From: a virus
IMG/VR virus record: IMGVR_UViG_3300030105_003319
Span: 1-27,343 of that record
Reading direction: 5' to 3' (one strand)
Length of the DNA stretch: 27,343 nt
Shown piece by piece: positions 13,472 through 24,449 of this stretch (positions within the stretch are counted from its first letter, which is position 1; each line of letters opens with the position of its first letter). The position numbers were made by a program, and so were the translations under genes. The notes beneath the pieces are model-generated. The model was given only the letters and a program-made list of their open reading frames with translations, did no database searches and was not told the DNA's origin.

Positions 13472-13546
13472 TCCGGAGTAGCTCAGCGGTAGAGCGGGGG
13501 ACTGTTAATCCTTAGGCCGTAGGTTCGAACCCTACCTCCGGAGCCA
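13472..13546 (+). tRNA. tRNA-Asn (anticodon GTT)
   Basis: A complete cloverleaf can be drawn. The acceptor stem TCCGGAG (13472-13478) pairs with CTCCGGA (13536-13542). The D arm is GCTC-AGCGGTA-GAGC. The anticodon stem GGGGA/TCCTT (two G-U pairs) has loop CTGTTAA and anticodon GTT at 13504-13506. The T arm is GTAGG-TTCGAAC-CCTAC. The discriminator is G and the CCA end is encoded (13544-13546). GTT reads AAC/AAU, so it supplies Asn, abundant in the AT-rich genes here. Confidence 0.95.
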
Positions 13547-14391: not shown

Positions 14392-17300
14392 TTAGCAACA
14401 GCAAACACAACAACTTGGTTGCGGCGGTGCTGGTGTCTGTGTAGGTGTAACTGTAGGTGTAACTGTGTTAGACGGCGTCTGAGTAACTGTATTAGACGGT
14501 GTATTAGTAGGCGTCTGAGTAACCGTAGCAGTATTAGTTGGTGTCTGAGTCATCGTATTACTAGGTGTATGCGATGATGTCTGTGTAGCAGTATGAGTTG
14601 GTGTTTGCGTAGCAGTATTTGATATAGTAGTTGACGGGGTAGGTGTCTTTGTAGCAGTTTTAGTAGGCGTCTGAGTAACCGTAGCAGTATTAGTTGGCGT
14701 CTGAGTAATCGTATTACTTGGTGTTTGCGTAGCAGTATGTGTTCTAGTAGTTGTCGGAGTAGGTGTCGGTGTACTTGTTTTACTAGGTGTTATACTCGGT
14801 GTAACACACGCTGTAGGTGTAATCGTATTGGTTGGCGTTTGTGTAACTGTGTTACTTGGTGTGTTTGTAGCAGTATGAGTTGGTGTCGTTGTATTAGTTG
14901 CTGTATTAGTAGGTGTTTTTGTTGCAGTATGAGTAGGTGTTTTTGTTGCAGTATGAGTAGGTGTTTTTGTTGCAGTTTTGGTCGGTGTTCCTGTAGCCGT
15001 TTTAGTAGGTGTCTGCGTTTTTGTTGGTGTCTGTGTAGCTGTATGAGTTGGTGTGGGACTACCGGTGTTAGTAGGTGTAGCAGTATGAGTTGGCGTCTTA
15101 GTAGCAGTATGAGTAGGTGTCTGTGTTGGTGTCTGTGTATTTGTAGCAGTATGAGTAGGTGTAGGTGTATTTGTTTCAGTTGCAGTTGCAGAAGCGTTTA
15201 CCGAACGTGAAGTGGTTGGTGTTGGGGACTGCGTACTAGTATTAGTAGGAGTAGGAGTCTTTGTAGCAGTATTAGACGGTGTAGGGGTCTTTGTTCCGGT
15301 ATTTGTTGGGGTCTTTGTATTTGTTGCTGTATTGGTTGGCGTCTGTGTAGTGGTATGTGATGGTGTATTAGACGGTGTCTTTGTAGCAGTATTAGTAGGC
15401 GTTTGTGTAACTGTATTACTAGGTGTGTTTGTAGCGGTATTAGTAGGCGTCTGTGTTGGTGTCTGTGTCTTAGTAGCAGTATGAGTTGGTGTCTTAGTAG
15501 CAGTACGAGTAGGTGTATTTGTAGCAGTACGAGTAGGTGTCTGTGTTTTTGTAGCAGTATTAGACGGGGTAGGAGTGTTTGTAGCAGTATGAGTTGGCGT
15601 TCCGGTAACCGTACCACTTGGCGTTTGTGTAGCAGTATGAGTAGGTGTTTGGGTTGTAGTATGTGACGGTGTAATAGATGGTGTTTGTGTAGCAGTACGA
15701 GTTGGTGTCTTAGTAGCAGTATGAGTAGGTGTATCTGTAGCAGTACGAGTAGGTGTCTGTGTCTTCGTAGCTGTGTTAGTTGGTGTTTGCGTAACAGTAT
15801 TAGTTGGCGTCTTTGAAGCAGTTCTTGTTGGCGTCCCTGTTTTAGTTGGAGTCCGTGTAACACTTGCTGTGTTAGTTGGTGTCTTTGTAGCAGTGTTTGA
15901 TGGTGTTCCTGTTTTAGTTGGAGTCTGCGTCCTAGTTCCGGTATTAGTCGGTGTAGGAGTACCAGTGTTACTAGGCGTGTTTGTAGCAGTATGAGTTGGC
16001 GTCTTTGTATTAGTTGCTGTATTAGTTGGCGTCTGCGTAGCAGTATTACTTGGCGTGTTTGTAGCAGTATTACTTGGCGTGTTTGTATTAGTTGCTGTAT
16101 TAGTTGGCGTCTGCGTTTTTGTAGCAGTAGGAGTAGGGGTCCCTGTTTTACTTGGAGTAATAGTAGCAGTAGGTGTAGTAGGAGGCGTAGGGTTAGGTGT
16201 TGGTGTACCTGATTGTGTTCTAGTAGTTGACGGTGTAGGGGTCTGTGTACCTGTTTTAGTAGGTGTTTTTGTAGCAGTATTAGTTGGTGTCTGTGAACGT
16301 GTTGTAGATTGTGTAGTTGTCGGTGTAGGAGTTTTTGTTGGTGTTATAGGTGGAGTCGGCTCAGCTGTTGGTGTTGCTGTTCCTGAATTTGTAGTTGTCT
16401 GTGTTGGTGTATTGGTAGGTGTCTTGGTAGGTGTCTTGGTTTGTGTAGGTGTAACTGTACCTGTATTCGTAGGAGTACCAGTTTTTGTAGCAGTATTAGT
16501 AGGCGTTTGTGTAACTGTATTACTTGGTGTAGCAGTAGGTGTAGCAGGACCATTAGATGGTGTCTGTGTCTGAGTAGCAGTACCGGTTTGTGTCGGTGTA
16601 CTAGTATTAGTAGGCGTAGGAGTTTTTGTCCCGGTACTTGTTGGTGTCTGTGTTTTTGTAGATGTTGGGGTTGCAGATGGGCATATTTCCGGGCATTCTA
16701 GTGTATAAGTCCACGCTGGTTTATCATGTACCGGGGATGTAATTGTTACAATAGCTTCATCAGTTACAAACCGTGCAACTCTAGCTTGTAAAGTTCCTGA
16801 TGTAGTATTTTTTACATCAGGGAAACCGTCGGCGGATATTAAAAGTCCAGGAAATTCATTAGCAACGTAGCCTAGATCGATTAAAGCATCAATAAATGCC
16901 TGCCTTTTACTACCACTAAAGTTATAAGATGAATGGCCAATAAACCCAGAATCAAAAATCTCTTCACCTTCATAGGTAACTACAAACCTATCCGGCCCAT
17001 CAACAACATTATACTTAAGACTAACACATCTTTCAAAAGTCTTTGATGAAGTAACACTCGGCGTAGGGGAAAAACTAGGGGTTCCAGTCTGTGTAGGTGT
17101 GCTAGTAACTTTAGATGTAGGTGTAACTGTTTGCGTAGCTGTACTACTCGGTGTAACACCGAAAGTTAGTGTTGTAGTTTGGGTCTGTGTAGGTGTATGT
17201 GTAGGTGTCTGTGTTGGTGTATCTGTCTGAGGTGGTGTAATACTTACAACTAGCGAATTACTAGGTGTCTGTGTCGTTGTTTGACAAGGAGTACCTGGCA

Positions 17301-18819
17301 CGGGACATGTATTTGATGCAGTAGGTGTTGCTGAGCCTGTTGATGTAGGAGTATTAGATAGCACGACAGGACAACCAGAAGGTATACCTGGACTACCCGA
17401 TGGTGGTGAAGGTATACTAGACCCACAGCAGGTTCCGGTATTACTCGGTGTTGGTGTTTGGGTTGCAGCGGGTATTGCCGGTCCTGTAGCAGAATGACTA
17501 ATTGTTGGTGTAGGTGTTGGTGAAGCAGAAACATCATTAACAGTTACTTTAAGTATTTTATCCGCTCCTTTAGCTATATAATATATAGTATTACCGATAG
17601 TGATGCCATCTGAAAAATAACCGTCTGATCCTTCACCTCCACCAGCTTGAACAAGTGTATCAGTTATGTCATGGTAACTAATGACGTCAGTAGCTGGGTT
17701 TATCCAAATAAGATACGGTGCGTCGACGGGCACAGAATAAACAAAACCATTAGGACCTAAAACTGAGTTAAGGGATTTTTCAGCAAAATCACCGGAAGGT
17801 AATTCAACTTCAAACTCATCAATTGCAGTAATAAGGGCTGGAGGAAGTGCGATTTCTGTTGTAGAATCATCTGATGTATCAATCTTAAGAATAGCATTTG
17901 CACGCTTAGGCATTGCATAAATGCTATTATTTGACGCTAATGTACCACCAGAATACATGTTAAAGAAAGGAAATGGATCCAGATTTTTTGTAGCTGAATT
18001 GATTGGATTAGTATTAGGGGTTAGACAACCTGTAATTACATCACTACCAAAACTTACTTTCTCTGCATCTGGCTTAGTCGTATCTATTATAAGAATAGCT
18101 TCACTAGACATTGGTGTTCCATAAATCTTATTGTTACCACCACTAGTAGCACCACAAAATCTTCTATAAACATCATCTACAATACCTTCATCTACAGCTG
18201 TATTTCGTATACTATGTATTGGACCAGCTGTTGGTGTTTCTGGAAAAGGTAAATCAGCACCTACAGCATCAGAACTAGTAACCATGGTCCGGACCTTTGC
18301 AGGTCCTGTAAAAGGTACCATATATAAGCACTCACTTGCACCTGACCCCCCTAGCACACCTCCTGCTGCTTGAAGACTGCAACGTGAATTACAATTAGAA
18401 AAGTAACTTTGACTAACTGTAACTGGTGATACTGCAGTATCGATAACTAATGGACCGGTGATAGCGTTAAGCGGGTTAGCGTAAATCTTACCACTAGTTG
18501 TCTCTAAAATCCCTCCACTATACTTATGTGATTGATCGCTTAGCGAAGGATCAACTAATCCAAGATCAGCAAACTTATTAACAGTTGTATCAGTTCCTGG
18601 ATCGAACTTTGTTATATATTGAGCATCATCAGGTATAAGGTAAAGCTTTCTATCAAGACCAAGAACAGCGCCTTGAAACTTTGATCCTGTTGTGCAGCCG
18701 GCTGTTGTGCAACCAGTAGGTAACGTATCCGCAAGACTTGAACCAACAAAATCGAATGTGAGGTTTGACCCCAGCGTGTTAGGTGTAATGGTTGGTGTAT
18801 ATGAAGGGTGAAATGACAT
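14392..18819 (-). CDS. Giant Thr/Pro-repeat tail fibre with N-terminal propeller and Cys tail
   Basis: The 1475-residue protein has four parts. Residues about 1-425 form repeated strand blades with recurring KIYxxP/IYAMP/FVYSVP and LKID/LIWINP motifs, consistent with a beta-propeller. About 427-590 is a Ser/Thr/Pro linker that includes TCCGSS. About 595-711 is a folded module (ERCVSLKY to LECPEICP) related to one in the neighbouring protein at 18823. From about 712 to 1468 there is a very long degenerate TPTxTxTxTPT repeat with Thr at nearly every second position. The protein ends SCCVCCC. There is no signal peptide. The start lies 3 nt after the stop of the upstream gene. The repeat stalk is probably an extended rod, perhaps glycosylated; the six cysteines may crosslink or bind metal. 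Confidence 0.85.
14400..16680 (-). repeat. Degenerate Thr-Pro coding repeat array
   Basis: Hundreds of ACN and CCN codons on the minus strand produce low-complexity sequence that is GT-rich on the plus strand. Units such as [11 protein letters not shown] vary in spacing and codon, so this is a protein-level repeat rather than an exact DNA repeat. It creates several spurious ORFs in other frames and could support recombination or slippage. Confidence 0.9.
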
Positions 18820-18822
18820 GAC

Positions 18823-21105
18823 TTATGAATATTCTGGAAAGACTACTTTTCTAAGTGTTTCGTGTTGTTGTGTTAAGCCACATAAGTAGCTATCTTCCGT
18901 ACCGCAAGATAATGTGTAAAATGGGCAACCGATGAAAGCTATCCAATTTGTTGATGATAAGGGTGAATATACATTTAATGTAATTCGTGAAGAATCAGTA
19001 TCTTTATAAAAGTAACTACTCCCCGCCGCCTTGGTAGAATCAACCAACGGATAACCGTCAGCTGCTATAGCACTTAAAGGCAATTCTATGTCTGATCCAT
19101 GTGAATAGCTCGACAAAAGACCAGTAATAAAAGTGGAACGAGCCGATCCGTTGTAATTATATATACTATTACCTACATACCCTGTGTCATATACCGGGTT
19201 ATTTTCATACATGTATACAAATCTTGTAGGAAGTTTAAAATTTGGTGTATTCCACTGTAGATTAACATCACCAATAAAGGCAGAAATAGAATACAGAGTA
19301 GAAGAAGGAAAAAAGTCACCTTCCGCGTCGGCATCTGTAGCACTTAATCCACAGCTAATATCAGGACACCCAACTTCAGGTTCAATACCCAAGAAAGGTA
19401 AAGGTTGTTTAGCTTCTGTAAGAGGGGTAGCACCGTCCGGCTCACTTAAGCTAATTGAAGATAGTATAAATGGTACGATAGGTTCAAAATTAAAATTAGC
19501 CGCACTTGCTTCAGTAGTAGGAGCTTTACCCTCTACATGAAAATTAGATACAATTACTTCACCTCTTACAGTACCAGCAGATAAAGGCTTAACAACAGTA
19601 AAGCCTGGTCTGTATCTACTAAGAGATGTAAATGGTAATCTTGTAATATTAGATGTAAGTAAGTTAGTATAAAATATATCACCTTGTGATTTATAATCTA
19701 CTTGTATCTTACTACCATAATTTCCTAACCTTGCTCTTATAGTTTTAACTCCATCACTTATAAGGTTAAATGCACTTACAGTACCTACCCCGGTTAAATA
19801 GCTGTAATTACTATCACGAACAGAAATACTATTAGCGACTATATCAGCTGCACCAATACCATCACGCGTTTGTGAATTTGAATAGGTAGATGATAGTGCA
19901 AAAATACCAAGAGAGTCTATACCTATTCCTAACACTGCGCCATCTAAAGATTTATTCGCTAAATTTGTTGCAGATAAATCTTTAATACCAGAATAACCTA
20001 AATTAGAACCAACACCTCCTCCGGATAAAGCAGTATCTGCATCTTGTAGAAACATACAAAACCCTAATTCATCAGCCGGTGAAGAATTACTTAATTCATA
20101 TGTAAACGACCAAGTTATATCATATTCCGGTGATAACCCTTCTTCGAAAATTGCTACGGATGTTGCAGATAATGGTAATCCGTTCCACTGTTGTAAAAAG
20201 GAGTCGAGATTTACATCTGTCATAGTATATCCAGATGCTGGAAATCCTGATGCTAAAGCTGCGTAAGTAGTATCAACATCAGTAATCATTCGATTTAGAT
20301 CGTTATAGTTACGCGCGCTGCTAATATAAGGCCCGGTATTAACACCGTACCAAGTTCCTAATACAACCACTTCGTTATTTAGAAGCATCATTACCGGGCT
20401 ACCAGAGTCACCTCCAGAGATCGGTGCATAAAAAGTAGATGCTGGTGCAGTACTAGGTACTCCAGTTTTAAAAGTAGCATAAGCACTCAATCCGTAGTTA
20501 TTAGGATCATCATCTTCAAGACTACCAAAATTAATTTGTGATAATGTGCGTACAGCAGCATCTTCATGTTGATTAGTGTTAAGAATTAATGCATCGCTAA
20601 TAGAAGAGTCCCATGTTGTAGCATTAAGAGTGAACTCAGTTGGATTAAAATACCGGTATGAATCTTTTGGTAAGACTTTAACTATATCAATTGAAGTTGG
20701 TAAGTCGGCTTCAAGAAGACCTATACTATAATCACCGTTTCCGAATCCGGAATACGGAGCGTTTTTAGTTGCAACTATCTTACGCGTAATTAAGGTATTA
20801 TCTTTTGTTACGAAGTAAACCTCATCTTCATATACATATTTAGCATGCTTTGCATACAAAATATGCCTTTTTGTAATTGCAGTTCCACCTAAGAGTTTTT
20901 CATGACCTTGACTCGTTCTATTATTCCATGCAACTAAACCAGTTATACCGGAGACATTATGAACCCAGCTATTTGTATTTCGAGATAGACTTTCTACCGC
21001 GGTATAATTACTAAATAATACCTTATCGGTAGCTGGATTCTTTCCGGTAATAGCAGAAAGAATAGAGCTGGTCGAAATCTCTTGTATTAGTGGTAAATTA
21101 GACAT
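18823..21105 (-). CDS. Adhesin with trypsin-like protease and lectin-like domains
   Basis: The 760-residue product has an N-terminal chymotrypsin-fold serine protease (about 50-270). The catalytic residues read as His87 (LYAKHAKY), Asp125 (NGDYSIGLL) and Ser234 in GGDSGSP, the hallmark of the family. From about 310 to 530 a jelly-roll-like region (WSFTYELS, GFCMFLQDADTALSGGGVG, VLGIGIDSLGIFALS) resembles L-type/concanavalin lectins. Residues about 620-727 carry the module shared with the giant fibre at 14392, and a short Cys-containing tail follows. I choose ATG 21105 because AAAGGTG lies 5 nt upstream; the alternative GTG 21111 falls inside that ribosome site. A late-like ATTAAATA lies upstream. 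The protease may process fibres or host surface proteins; substrate unknown. Confidence 0.82.
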   Translation of the reverse strand: MSNLPLIQEISTSSILSAITGKNPATDKVLFSNYTAVESLSRNTNSWVHNVSGITGLVAWNNRTSQGHEKLLGGTAITKRHILYAKHAKYVYEDEVYFVTKDNTLITRKIVATKNAPYSGFGNGDYSIGLLEADLPTSIDIVKVLPKDSYRYFNPTEFTLNATTWDSSISDALILNTNQHEDAAVRTLSQINFGSLEDDDPNNYGLSAYATFKTGVPSTAPASTFYAPISGGDSGSPVMMLLNNEVVVLGTWYGVNTGPYISSARNYNDLNRMITDVDTTYAALASGFPASGYTMTDVNLDSFLQQWNGLPLSATSVAIFEEGLSPEYDITWSFTYELSNSSPADELGFCMFLQDADTALSGGGVGSNLGYSGIKDLSATNLANKSLDGAVLGIGIDSLGIFALSSTYSNSQTRDGIGAADIVANSISVRDSNYSYLTGVGTVSAFNLISDGVKTIRARLGNYGSKIQVDYKSQGDIFYTNLLTSNITRLPFTSLSRYRPGFTVVKPLSAGTVRGEVIVSNFHVEGKAPTTEASAANFNFEPIVPFILSSISLSEPDGATPLTEAKQPLPFLGIEPEVGCPDISCGLSATDADAEGDFFPSSTLYSISAFIGDVNLQWNTPNFKLPTRFVYMYENNPVYDTGYVGNSIYNYNGSARSTFITGLLSSYSHGSDIELPLSAIAADGYPLVDSTKAAGSSYFYKDTDSSRITLNVYSPLSSTNWIAFIGCPFYTLSCGTEDSYLCGLTQQHETLRKVVFPEYS

Positions 21106-21108
21106 TAA

Positions 21109-21122
21109 CACCTTTATTTAAT
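21109..21122 (-). promoter_or_regulatory. Late-like ATTAAATA plus Shine-Dalgarno AAAGGTG
   Basis: ATTAAATA (21115-21122) partly overlaps AAAGGTG (21109-21115), which is spaced correctly for ATG 21105. This is one of only two clear ribosome sites in the window. The late motif is 9 nt before the ATG. Confidence 0.45.
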
Positions 21123-21158: not shown

Positions 21159-22754
21159 TTACATTCCCCATTCGAATTTAACTAAGCCAGCTTTAGTATT
21201 AATACTTACACCTTTGTGACCTCCACCACCAGCTCCAGGAGCTTGGTCTGATCCCCAGAAAGATGCAGGACCACTAGTCCGGTAGTCTTCACCACCATCA
21301 GTTTTCCACCCACCAGATCCACCTTCTATAACATAACCACCGATAATATATGGACTACTAGTGTTTAATGTACCTTTATTACCACCATTTAGAGAAGCTG
21401 CTGTATGTATATTAGCACTAAGACTAGCAGCTCCATTACTTATTAATAGATTAACTCCACCAACTACGATTTTACTTAAGTTTCCAGCAGAATTAGCAGT
21501 AGTTTGACCAGCGCCTACAGTTACAGTAACAGTAGTACCAGGTTGAGCAGAAAGTATAGCATATACTGTTGCTGCAGCTCCACCTGTACGTAGTCCGCCT
21601 TTAGCACCAGAACCTGTAACCCATACTTTTGTATGCTCAGCTACGGTTGTAAATGTACTTGTACCGGCTGAGTCAACTACTGTAATACCTGGAGGAACTG
21701 GACCAATCTTAATTGCACCAGCTAGAGTATTTATAGGGACACCATTACCTACTGCTACATTATTGTTAGTAGCAGTTAACCCACCGTTAATTGTTAGTGT
21801 AGAAGTAACTACTGTATCAGGAAGTGCTTTAATATAATAACTTACTGCTTTGGTTGTGTATGTACTACCGGTAGAGTTAAGAGTACCATTACTAAAGCTC
21901 GCCACATCCGCTTGCCCTACATGTACAACATCCTCATAGTTAGGTAGGTTAAAGTTATTACCAGAGCCACCATATGTAGCATGAATAACACTTGAAAGTA
22001 CACCATATGTTGTATTAGATACTGACGCGCCATTGCAAAGTAACCACCCAACAGGAAATGCTTTACCACTAGCAGCAGCCATAATAGTACCAACAGGTAT
22101 AAAGGCGCTAGCTGAATTAACATAAAACTGACCTGTATTAAGCGGTGCTGACCATGAAAGTTGACCGGTAGAATTAGTACCTAAAAATGCATTATTAGCA
22201 ACTCCACCTACAGGGAAGCTATACTGAACAGCGTTAATATTGAGCTTCTCTGGTAGCTTAAGATGAGTGGCAGTATTAGTGTTAATTTGATCTGTCTTAA
22301 TCTGAGTAGCGCTTAATGAAATTCTACCAGATACTAATTCGAGTGAATTACCAAGAGCATCAGTATGAAAGTTATTAGCTGATAGTGTACCTACAATTAT
22401 AGTACCAGTTACCTCATTAATAGTAATTGTACTATTACCTGCTGCTAGTACTTGTGAAACTTTTACCCAAGCGTTTGAAACGTAAGCATAAAGAGATCTA
22501 GTTGTTGAATTAAAGGCTATATCACCTTCTACCATACCAGTTATAGTTAAATGATTAGTAACAGACCCTTTAAACTTATTACCTGTTATAATACCACCTA
22601 AAGTCTGACCATCACCTACAAACAAACGTTTACCATCTGTAGTATAGCCTAACTCTCCTTGATTTAGGGTTATATTTTGACGATCCGTATCCTGCCCGCG
22701 CCGGACTAATAGCTTTAAGAGGGTGTTTTCGAGAATTTCAATTTTCTTTGACAT
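21159..22754 (-). CDS. Tail fibre: Mtd-N-like head, collar domain, Gly-rich tip
   Basis: The 531-residue protein starts with an Mtd-N-type attachment head (about 12-55: LVRRGQDTDRQNITL, GELGYTTDGKRLFVGDG). A beta-structured stalk follows. Then comes a phage tail-collar domain at about 216-280 (IPVGTIMAAASGKAFPVGWL, LCNGA, NFNLPNY). The C-terminal glycine-rich tip (about 371-531) contains GSGAKGG, GGSGGWKTDGGE and APGAGGGGHKG, ending FEWGM. It resembles Gly-rich receptor-binding tips such as those of T-even-type adhesins. The head is paralogous to that of the next gene. The tip is the likely receptor contact. The upstream gene ends 12 nt before the start. Confidence 0.83.
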   Translation of the reverse strand: MSKKIEILENTLLKLLVRRGQDTDRQNITLNQGELGYTTDGKRLFVGDGQTLGGIITGNKFKGSVTNHLTITGMVEGDIAFNSTTRSLYAYVSNAWVKVSQVLAAGNSTITINEVTGTIIVGTLSANNFHTDALGNSLELVSGRISLSATQIKTDQINTNTATHLKLPEKLNINAVQYSFPVGGVANNAFLGTNSTGQLSWSAPLNTGQFYVNSASAFIPVGTIMAAASGKAFPVGWLLCNGASVSNTTYGVLSSVIHATYGGSGNNFNLPNYEDVVHVGQADVASFSNGTLNSTGSTYTTKAVSYYIKALPDTVVTSTLTINGGLTATNNNVAVGNGVPINTLAGAIKIGPVPPGITVVDSAGTSTFTTVAEHTKVWVTGSGAKGGLRTGGAAATVYAILSAQPGTTVTVTVGAGQTTANSAGNLSKIVVGGVNLLISNGAASLSANIHTAASLNGGNKGTLNTSSPYIIGGYVIEGGSGGWKTDGGEDYRTSGPASFWGSDQAPGAGGGGHKGVSINTKAGLVKFEWGM

Positions 22755-22766
22755 AATATTATTTTA

Positions 22767-23795
22767 TCAATAGTTGTATACAGGAATTGCTAGCCTACCA
22801 CATGTACCAGAGTTAATTGTAATAAATCCAGCAGAGCATAGACATACTTGGACTGCTGCAATATTACTACCAGCATCAGCACAAAAACTTCCAGATTGTG
22901 CACATACAATTGTTCGCCCGGTGACGGTCGTATCAATAAGATCTCCAAAAAAGGATTTACCGCACCCAGACGTGTCTGTACCTGAAAAGTTTTGAGTAAT
23001 TGAGTTACTCGTACTAGTAACTCTGCCATACTGGTCATAACATGTCGTGTTAAACGGTTTACTCTCACCAGCACCAAGAGTAACCATACCAAGACAATTT
23101 GATGTCATCTGTAAACCATTACCAACTGTACTCTGATTAAGTGCGCAAGCACAAACTGTACAACCAGGTGCATTAACTATCTCTAATTTTCCTCCAGGGA
23201 AACCAAATGATGGGCATGTAAAGAGGCCTATTTGATTACCTCCTCCTCCGCTTAAACCATTACCAATACAGCTAGTAGGAACTGGCGCGCCTAAAACACT
23301 AAGTTGACCTGTAGTAGAGTTTACTCTTATAGATGTGCCATCAACAGCAGCTGAAAGCCCTTGAACTGGGTTAAGAGTAATACCGCCGTTAGTAGCTACA
23401 ACATCCGAATTTAACGACGTCGCTGATATAGCACCAGTAACAACATGAAGCTTGTTGTTAACATCATAGCTAATAGATGCAGTATCTGTTTGCGATCCTA
23501 TAAAAGCCCAATTAGAAAGTATAGAGTAATCAGTACCAGAAAGTTGAAATAGTAAATTATCTTCATATACTAAATCATTTTGTACTGCTTCAGCAAGAGA
23601 TGTTTTTGCACTAGATGTCAGTGGTGCATATACTAAATTTCCAGCAACATGCCCTCCTGCGGTAAAGCCATCTCCAACCCAGACCCTTTTTCGATCTGTA
23701 GTATATCCTAATTCACCCTGCTCAAGGATGACTGACTGACGTTGTGAGTCAGTACCTCTTCTTAATTTTAGTTTTACGATTTCGACGTCAGGCAT
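22767..23795 (-). CDS. Tail fibre with Mtd-N-like head and Cys-rich C-terminus
   Basis: The 342-residue product shares its N-terminal 50 residues in pattern with the previous fibre (LRRGTDSQRQSVILEQGELG, YTTDRKRVWVGDG). This indicates the same virion docking site. The middle is a beta stalk (ISYDVNNKLHVVTGAISATSL, in part). The C-terminal half contains 13 Cys, including GCTVCACAL and VCLCSAG, spaced irregularly. Disulfide-rich adhesive tips could explain the Cys, but many phage virions mature in the reducing cytoplasm, so this is open. The function is receptor binding by analogy. The start is ATG 23795, 12 nt after the upstream gene; no clear ribosome site or late motif is seen. Confidence 0.78.
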   Translation of the reverse strand: MPDVEIVKLKLRRGTDSQRQSVILEQGELGYTTDRKRVWVGDGFTAGGHVAGNLVYAPLTSSAKTSLAEAVQNDLVYEDNLLFQLSGTDYSILSNWAFIGSQTDTASISYDVNNKLHVVTGAISATSLNSDVVATNGGITLNPVQGLSAAVDGTSIRVNSTTGQLSVLGAPVPTSCIGNGLSGGGGNQIGLFTCPSFGFPGGKLEIVNAPGCTVCACALNQSTVGNGLQMTSNCLGMVTLGAGESKPFNTTCYDQYGRVTSTSNSITQNFSGTDTSGCGKSFFGDLIDTTVTGRTIVCAQSGSFCADAGSNIAAVQVCLCSAGFITINSGTCGRLAIPVYNY

Positions 23796-23807: not shown

Positions 23808-24416
23808 TTAAGTTGTTCTTTGCCACACATACAATCCGAATGATGGTGGTATATTGTTATGTGGTGTTCCACTACCGGTAGTTTTAACTATATCATTTGA
23901 TAATCTATCATTACCATTGTTAGAGTTACCAGATTGAATTGTATCACCTCCTAGAGAAACTGAACCACCATTAGAAAACTTAGCCTCATGCCCGTGTGCA
24001 GGCAACTCAGCTGTTATTAGTTGATGGTTATATTTACCAATTGTGTTAGCACCAGCTGGTATTGATTTAGATTCTGTACCATCATTACCAGTACCTTCAC
24101 CGGCTATAAAACGGCCCTCTGATATCTGTATCCAAGAGGTTCCAGTAAAACGTGTCCCCGGGTTATTGTTATTTTGTGAAAATATAACCGCCCCTACTGG
24201 GTAGATTGCATCAGCGATAGCAGCTTTAAACGAAGCACCTAATGTACCGTCTACATCAATACCTTTCCCTGCTCTTCCTACCTTAAGAGCACTTTTATTA
24301 CCAAACCCATCATAAATATCCGCTTGCTCTTTATCCGGTAAAGCTGCACCGCAAGCATGCAGTACACCAACGTAAGTCTCGCTAATGTTAGTATTTGTTA
24401 AAGAGGTACTTGCCAT
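23808..24416 (-). CDS. Collar/short-tail-fibre-like protein
   Basis: From ATG 24416 the product is 202 residues. The C-terminal part carries signature segments of tail-fibre tips of the collar type: IYPVGAVIFSQNNNNPGTRF, SWIQISEGRFIAGEG, LPAHGHEA and HNNIPPSFGLYVWQR. The His-rich LPAHGHEA and the terminal NIPPSFGLYVWQR are common in such tips, and His residues can hold iron in the T4 short fibre gp12/L-type tips. The first 60 residues are a docking region. The longer start at 24449 would overlap the late motif, so I use the inner ATG, 5 nt after CATAAATA (24422-24429). Confidence 0.82.
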   Translation of the reverse strand: MASTSLTNTNISETYVGVLHACGAALPDKEQADIYDGFGNKSALKVGRAGKGIDVDGTLGASFKAAIADAIYPVGAVIFSQNNNNPGTRFTGTSWIQISEGRFIAGEGTGNDGTESKSIPAGANTIGKYNHQLITAELPAHGHEAKFSNGGSVSLGGDTIQSGNSNNGNDRLSNDIVKTTGSGTPHNNIPPSFGLYVWQRTT

Positions 24417-24421
24417 ATATA

Positions 24422-24429
24422 TATTTATG
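24422..24429 (-). promoter_or_regulatory. T4-like late promoter motif CATAAATA
   Basis: Minus-strand CATAAATA, 5 nt before the ATG at 24416. The spacing is that seen at 12067 and 12828. Confidence 0.5.
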
Positions 24430-24449
24430 TCAATGGCAGTATTAAGCAA

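Follow-up and report, generated by a model that had tools for sequence, protein, structure and literature searches.

A tail protein from a virus begins with about 306 residues that form a predicted chymotrypsin-fold serine protease domain with an intact predicted catalytic triad, and this protease is a mobile module, grafted onto structural tail proteins as varied as fibres, baseplate wedges, sheath stabilisers and spikes. The gene (18823..21105, minus strand; 760 aa from an ATG start at 21105) lies in the window, our term for the whole stretch of DNA analysed, which is a linear IMG/VR record of 27,343 bp. Its open reading frame (18823..21111, minus strand) has no internal stops, and an in-frame GTG at 21111 would give 762 aa (2 aa more). 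Residues H87, D125 and S234 are numbered from the ATG, and would be 89, 127 and 236 if counted from the GTG.

The window probably derives from a T4-superfamily phage, because its SSB (phrog_224), sliding-clamp (phrog_223) and Gp10_C matches are T4-type. Around the protease gene, and likewise on the minus strand, domain matches identify a baseplate protein with a T4 Gp10_C domain (23808..24449), a tail fibre with an Mtd_N domain (22767..23795) and a tail fibre with Mtd_N and Phage Collar domains (21159..22754). Downstream lies an open reading frame for a Ser/Thr/Pro-rich protein of 1,475 aa (14392..18819, minus strand), which has a repeat-rich N-terminal part and a very long Thr/Pro/Ser-rich tail with repeats; its orthologue on contig L003 is of strongly different length (905 aa). 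A tRNA-Asn gene (anticodon gtt; 13472-13546) separates the early genes from the tail cluster.

Domain structure of the tail protein

The protease module spans residues ~7-306 (20188..21087, minus strand), as delimited by an AF2 model, VIA-align and homologue alignments. Its predicted catalytic residues, with minus-strand codons at 20845..20847 (His87), 20731..20733 (Asp125) and 20404..20406 (Ser234), lie within S1-like motifs: RHILYAKHA, GDYSIGLLE and GGDSGSP, respectively. Modelled on a 52-row alignment of the full protein, the domain reached a pLDDT of mostly 80-98 across residues 10-300 and exceeded 90 over most of the protease module, with ~30-84 outside the protease region; a 4-row alignment gave a pLDDT of 43. 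Against the PDB, VIA-align ranked chymotrypsin 1dlk first (Z 17.2, 3.0 A over 187 residues, model residues 24-277), closely followed by thrombins, and in Foldseek the model matched chymotrypsins and trypsins (best E 2.9e-6, to a chymotrypsin). A profile of the family also found trypsins as its best matches among PDB sequences (E 3.5e-4). The Asp is offset by two residues in that alignment, and we therefore base the assignment of Asp125 on conservation and motif. Counting back from Ser234 in the sequence, we saw no Asp at the position of the trypsin S1 pocket, and trypsin-like specificity is therefore not predicted. The earlier note had read a complete His87/Asp125/Ser234 triad with GDSGSP and a chymotrypsin-type domain from the letters. 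The triad is present in the open reading frame, and examination of the two points on which that reading could have failed, a missing fold and an unconserved triad, found the double beta-barrel in the model and the three residues in all homologues compared (see below).

By sequence, this domain stands apart from known families. The window protein had zero matches to Pfam, PHROG and NCBIfam models, including PF00089 (Trypsin) and PF13365 (Trypsin_2); among 46 family members, five matched PF00089 weakly (best E 2.6e-4) and one matched PF13365 (E 0.0047). The family thus belongs to clan PA/S1 by fold and triad and is a separate family by sequence, missed by the libraries searched. A limited literature search, covering few subscription papers, found no description of it.

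The protease is followed by a putative L-type-lectin-like domain at residues ~311-530 (19516..20175, minus strand), which is kept in contigs L003, L005, L016-L019 and L022. Foldseek matched legume lectins with a probability of 1.00 (peanut lectin, E 9.4e-6; soybean agglutinin, E 2.3e-5); because its list gives no aligned model range, these matches were placed at residues 311-530 by elimination, in a region of moderate pLDDT (~45-84). The VIA-align matches listed all fall on the protease, so the absence of lectins among them does not count against the lectin assignment. Nearer the C terminus, a module at residues ~595-729 (18919..19323, minus strand) is common to the downstream gene (33% identity to 16687-17082, E 6e-14). 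Taken together, the model, the lectin matches and this shared module support the architecture first proposed for the protein, in which a protease, a lectin-like domain and a shared module are combined within a tail-fibre locus.

Sister contigs with and without the protease

A comparison with sister contig L003 by blastn shows how cleanly the protease can be absent. The upstream fibre gene is shared, with 82% of nucleotides identical across the aligned block, after which L003 skips exactly 918 bp of the window (306 codons, in-frame; 20178..21095, minus strand), bounded by TACCACTA / TACCATTA, an 8-bp repeat that is found at the L003 joint. We found no mobile element at this insertion, only the short direct repeat. 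L016 and L017 start as L003 does, and L022, which also lacks the protease, keeps the same gene cluster. In a lectin tree, the window groups with L003, L016 and L017, and L005 also carries the protease-lectin fusion. The simplest reading is that the protease was lost in the L003 group; its transfer into the window lineage could also have produced this pattern.

These contigs bear on whether the protease matures the fibres, one of two functions suggested in the earlier note. Phages do use assembly proteases, and the module here forms the N terminus of a fibre-cluster protein and is followed by a linker modelled with low confidence (residues 305-314, pLDDT ~50), so that during virion assembly it might clip its own polypeptide or the neighbouring fibres, possibly freeing the lectin portion. 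However, no copy of the module was detected elsewhere on contigs L003, L016, L017 and L022, which may be incomplete, yet all four keep the gene cluster, and the neighbouring fibres, lectin and C-terminal module are retained at ~58-81% identity in L003, L016 and L017. The module also occurs on unrelated structural proteins that share no common substrate neighbour. We therefore downgraded fibre maturation as the main role and regard it as unlikely. Because the sisters lack the module precisely while the flanking fibres stay conserved, the protease instead appears to be accessory, and the neighbouring fibres, lectin and C-terminal module appear to be made without needing it. A natural comparison is already at hand between sister phages that carry the module and those that lack it.

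Distribution and proposed role of the module

Iterative searches found the protease module in 87 IMG/VR contigs (the window counted, each contig once, several being near-duplicates), whereas protease-domain queries from several branches matched only 1 of 50,697 annotated phage records (MW202510.1). The description of such proteases as rare in phages thus holds for annotated records and fails for uncultured phages. The earliest relatives found were MW202510.1, an annotated, uncultured phage, and IMG/VR contigs.

The proteins that carry the module differ widely. It forms the N terminus of the lectin protein in the window and in L005-L007, and the N terminus of an orthologue or look-alike of the downstream gene in L018-L021 and L035 (the last by sequence reading). 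In L009 (1079-2653; phrog_227) and L037 (2545-4212; PF16724) it lies at the C terminus of a T4 gp15-type sheath stabiliser. A third gp15-type fusion (L062, 3834-5774) is distant from these two in the protease tree, and this fusion therefore probably arose more than once. Elsewhere the module sits inside a baseplate-wedge-like protein (PF23786/phrog_17744; L008, L039, L040 and L042), whose gene comes after a gp6 homologue in L008, or at the C terminus of a tail-spike-like protein without a family match (L038 and L041, by sequence reading). It also follows a Big_2 domain (L044), fn3 and DUF285 (L058 and L059), or an Mtd_N-like start, recognized by sequence reading, among similar fibres (L067 and L068). 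An 898-aa protein in L045 (6854-9550) contains two tandem protease modules, with GDSG intact in both.

Bacterial relatives were found in few genomes. An earlier family profile found nothing in genome contigs, and a later profile search of such contigs found three protease copies in one Bacteroidales genome; a 296-genome sample of that phylum returned the same genome and one weak match, with no others. By eye, both Bacteroidales copies that could be read from the start have hydrophobic, signal-like N termini, and the C-terminal tails of all three copies look like T9SS sorting domains (for example, L117 6842-8032, which combines a signal-like N terminus, the protease module and a T9SS-like tail; the two further copies are in the same genome). 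Because these homologues look secreted and were found, the weak match aside, in one genome of 296, the protease seems to be an extracellular enzyme and mainly a phage property.

From the fusion partners and gene neighbours we infer that the protease is located in the virion. We give slightly better than even credence to a role in which it is displayed outside the particle as an optional extracellular enzyme, cutting proteins on the host cell or in its surroundings. In the window, the module would be tethered to an L-type-lectin-like protein of the fibre cluster; the lectin-like domain could keep it close to a glycan-covered surface, where it might cut outer-membrane or S-layer proteins, pili or a proteinaceous matrix, as a proteolytic counterpart to polysaccharide depolymerases. 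Cleavage of a host surface protein at adsorption, the other function suggested previously, would fit both the fusion partners and the secreted-looking bacterial relatives. A general clearing function without a fixed receptor geometry is favoured because the attachment points vary and include the neck protein gp15. Because gp15 fusions place the protease near the head-tail neck and not at the tail tip, some carriers may not bring it into contact with the host surface. The earlier view of the protein as a new receptor-engagement system was too specific: given that the mobile module occurs on distal-baseplate and neck proteins, conservation does not extend to a fixed protease-lectin receptor machine.

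The same variation in particle location (baseplate, neck or fibre), which suggests that precise contact geometry is not needed, and the secreted appearance of the bacterial homologues would also suit an enzyme that is released or acts in the medium after lysis, on free debris, decoy vesicles, host proteins or matrix, instead of at adsorption. We consider this rather unlikely, because the joining of a lectin-like domain to the protease in the window suggests a surface-directed role. Activity inside the infected cell, in host takeover or defence evasion, with the tail fusion being incidental, is very unlikely: although the protease is made in the cytoplasm and the window protein has no visible signal peptide, fusions to structural proteins recur in unrelated phages and stand-alone versions are few (5 of 76 complete open reading frames).

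Conservation of the catalytic residues favours the enzymatic role that we prefer. H87, D125 and S234 are intact in 60 of 60 homologues (less than 90% identical to each other), an alignment in which seven columns are fully invariant. Parts of the domain were included in our search patterns (for example, GTLI[ST]PRH and YTDQ[EQ][ER]K), and the conservation of G74, R80 and H81, which they span, was therefore partly selected for; the triad residues lie outside these patterns. One early window-derived pattern, KHAKYVYE, does include H87, and it returned zero protease homologues. In the ten homologue pairs for which dN/dS was computable, values of 0.08-0.30 show that the module is under purifying selection. 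The glycine at the Gly193 position, present in the GGDSGSP of the window, is kept in 52 of the 60 homologues and replaced by Tyr or Phe (YDSG or FDSG) in seven, which may impair the oxyanion hole. These seven changes would be in line with a pseudo-enzyme whose fold serves only as a binding module, a reading that the invariant triad and purifying selection make barely credible.

Comparison with known systems

The module resembles chymotrypsin and trypsin (clan PA, S1) in its model fold, in the order His-Asp-Ser, and in the GDSGxP at the serine and RH(I/V)L..xH at the histidine. It differs from them in its low identity (~15% in structural alignments), and in that the usual S1 disulfide cysteines are not seen and an N-terminal activation cut is not evident in the window domain. 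Earlier work has described trypsin-like proteins encoded by phages, among them one in Sinorhizobium phage phiM9 (PMC10783043), a member of the T4 superfamily. Its protein Sm_phiM9_102 (AKE44730.1) is annotated with a trypsin-like serine protease domain, but is a stand-alone protein of 230 aa, encoded beside gp23 and unfused to a tail protein. We rejected it as a relative of the window protease (hhalign probability 0.4%). By contrast, UOF78081.1 from podovirus ct3Et533 (MW202510.1), the product of a tail-region gene, belongs to the same family (27% identity over 251 aa, triad in register); there, the protease is C-terminal in another protein with no lectin domain seen, annotated as 'hypothetical protein'. 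The Hap autotransporter adhesin (PDB 3syj; Foldseek E 2.9e-5), a bacterial surface adhesin with an S1-fold protease, is similar in plan only: it is an autotransporter of bacteria, and its adhesive part differs.

In its proposed role, the module resembles the tail-spike depolymerases, virion-borne enzymes that open the way at the host surface. These have an unrelated fold and target polysaccharide, whereas the window protease would target protein; a review of tail-spike depolymerases names 'protease' once, solely for resistance to it (PMC6966330). The known surface-clearing virion enzymes are mostly polysaccharide, lipid-ester or peptidoglycan hydrolases, a list that protein degradation would join. 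A tail-borne S1-fold family that is nearly invisible to annotation would also explain a class of 'hypothetical' tail proteins. We tentatively suggest, giving it a little less than an even chance, that this undescribed, phage-centred S1-fold family serves as an enzyme head that is swapped among fibre, baseplate and neck proteins of the virion, and that its members are protein-degrading depolymerases comparable to the tail spikes that degrade polysaccharides.
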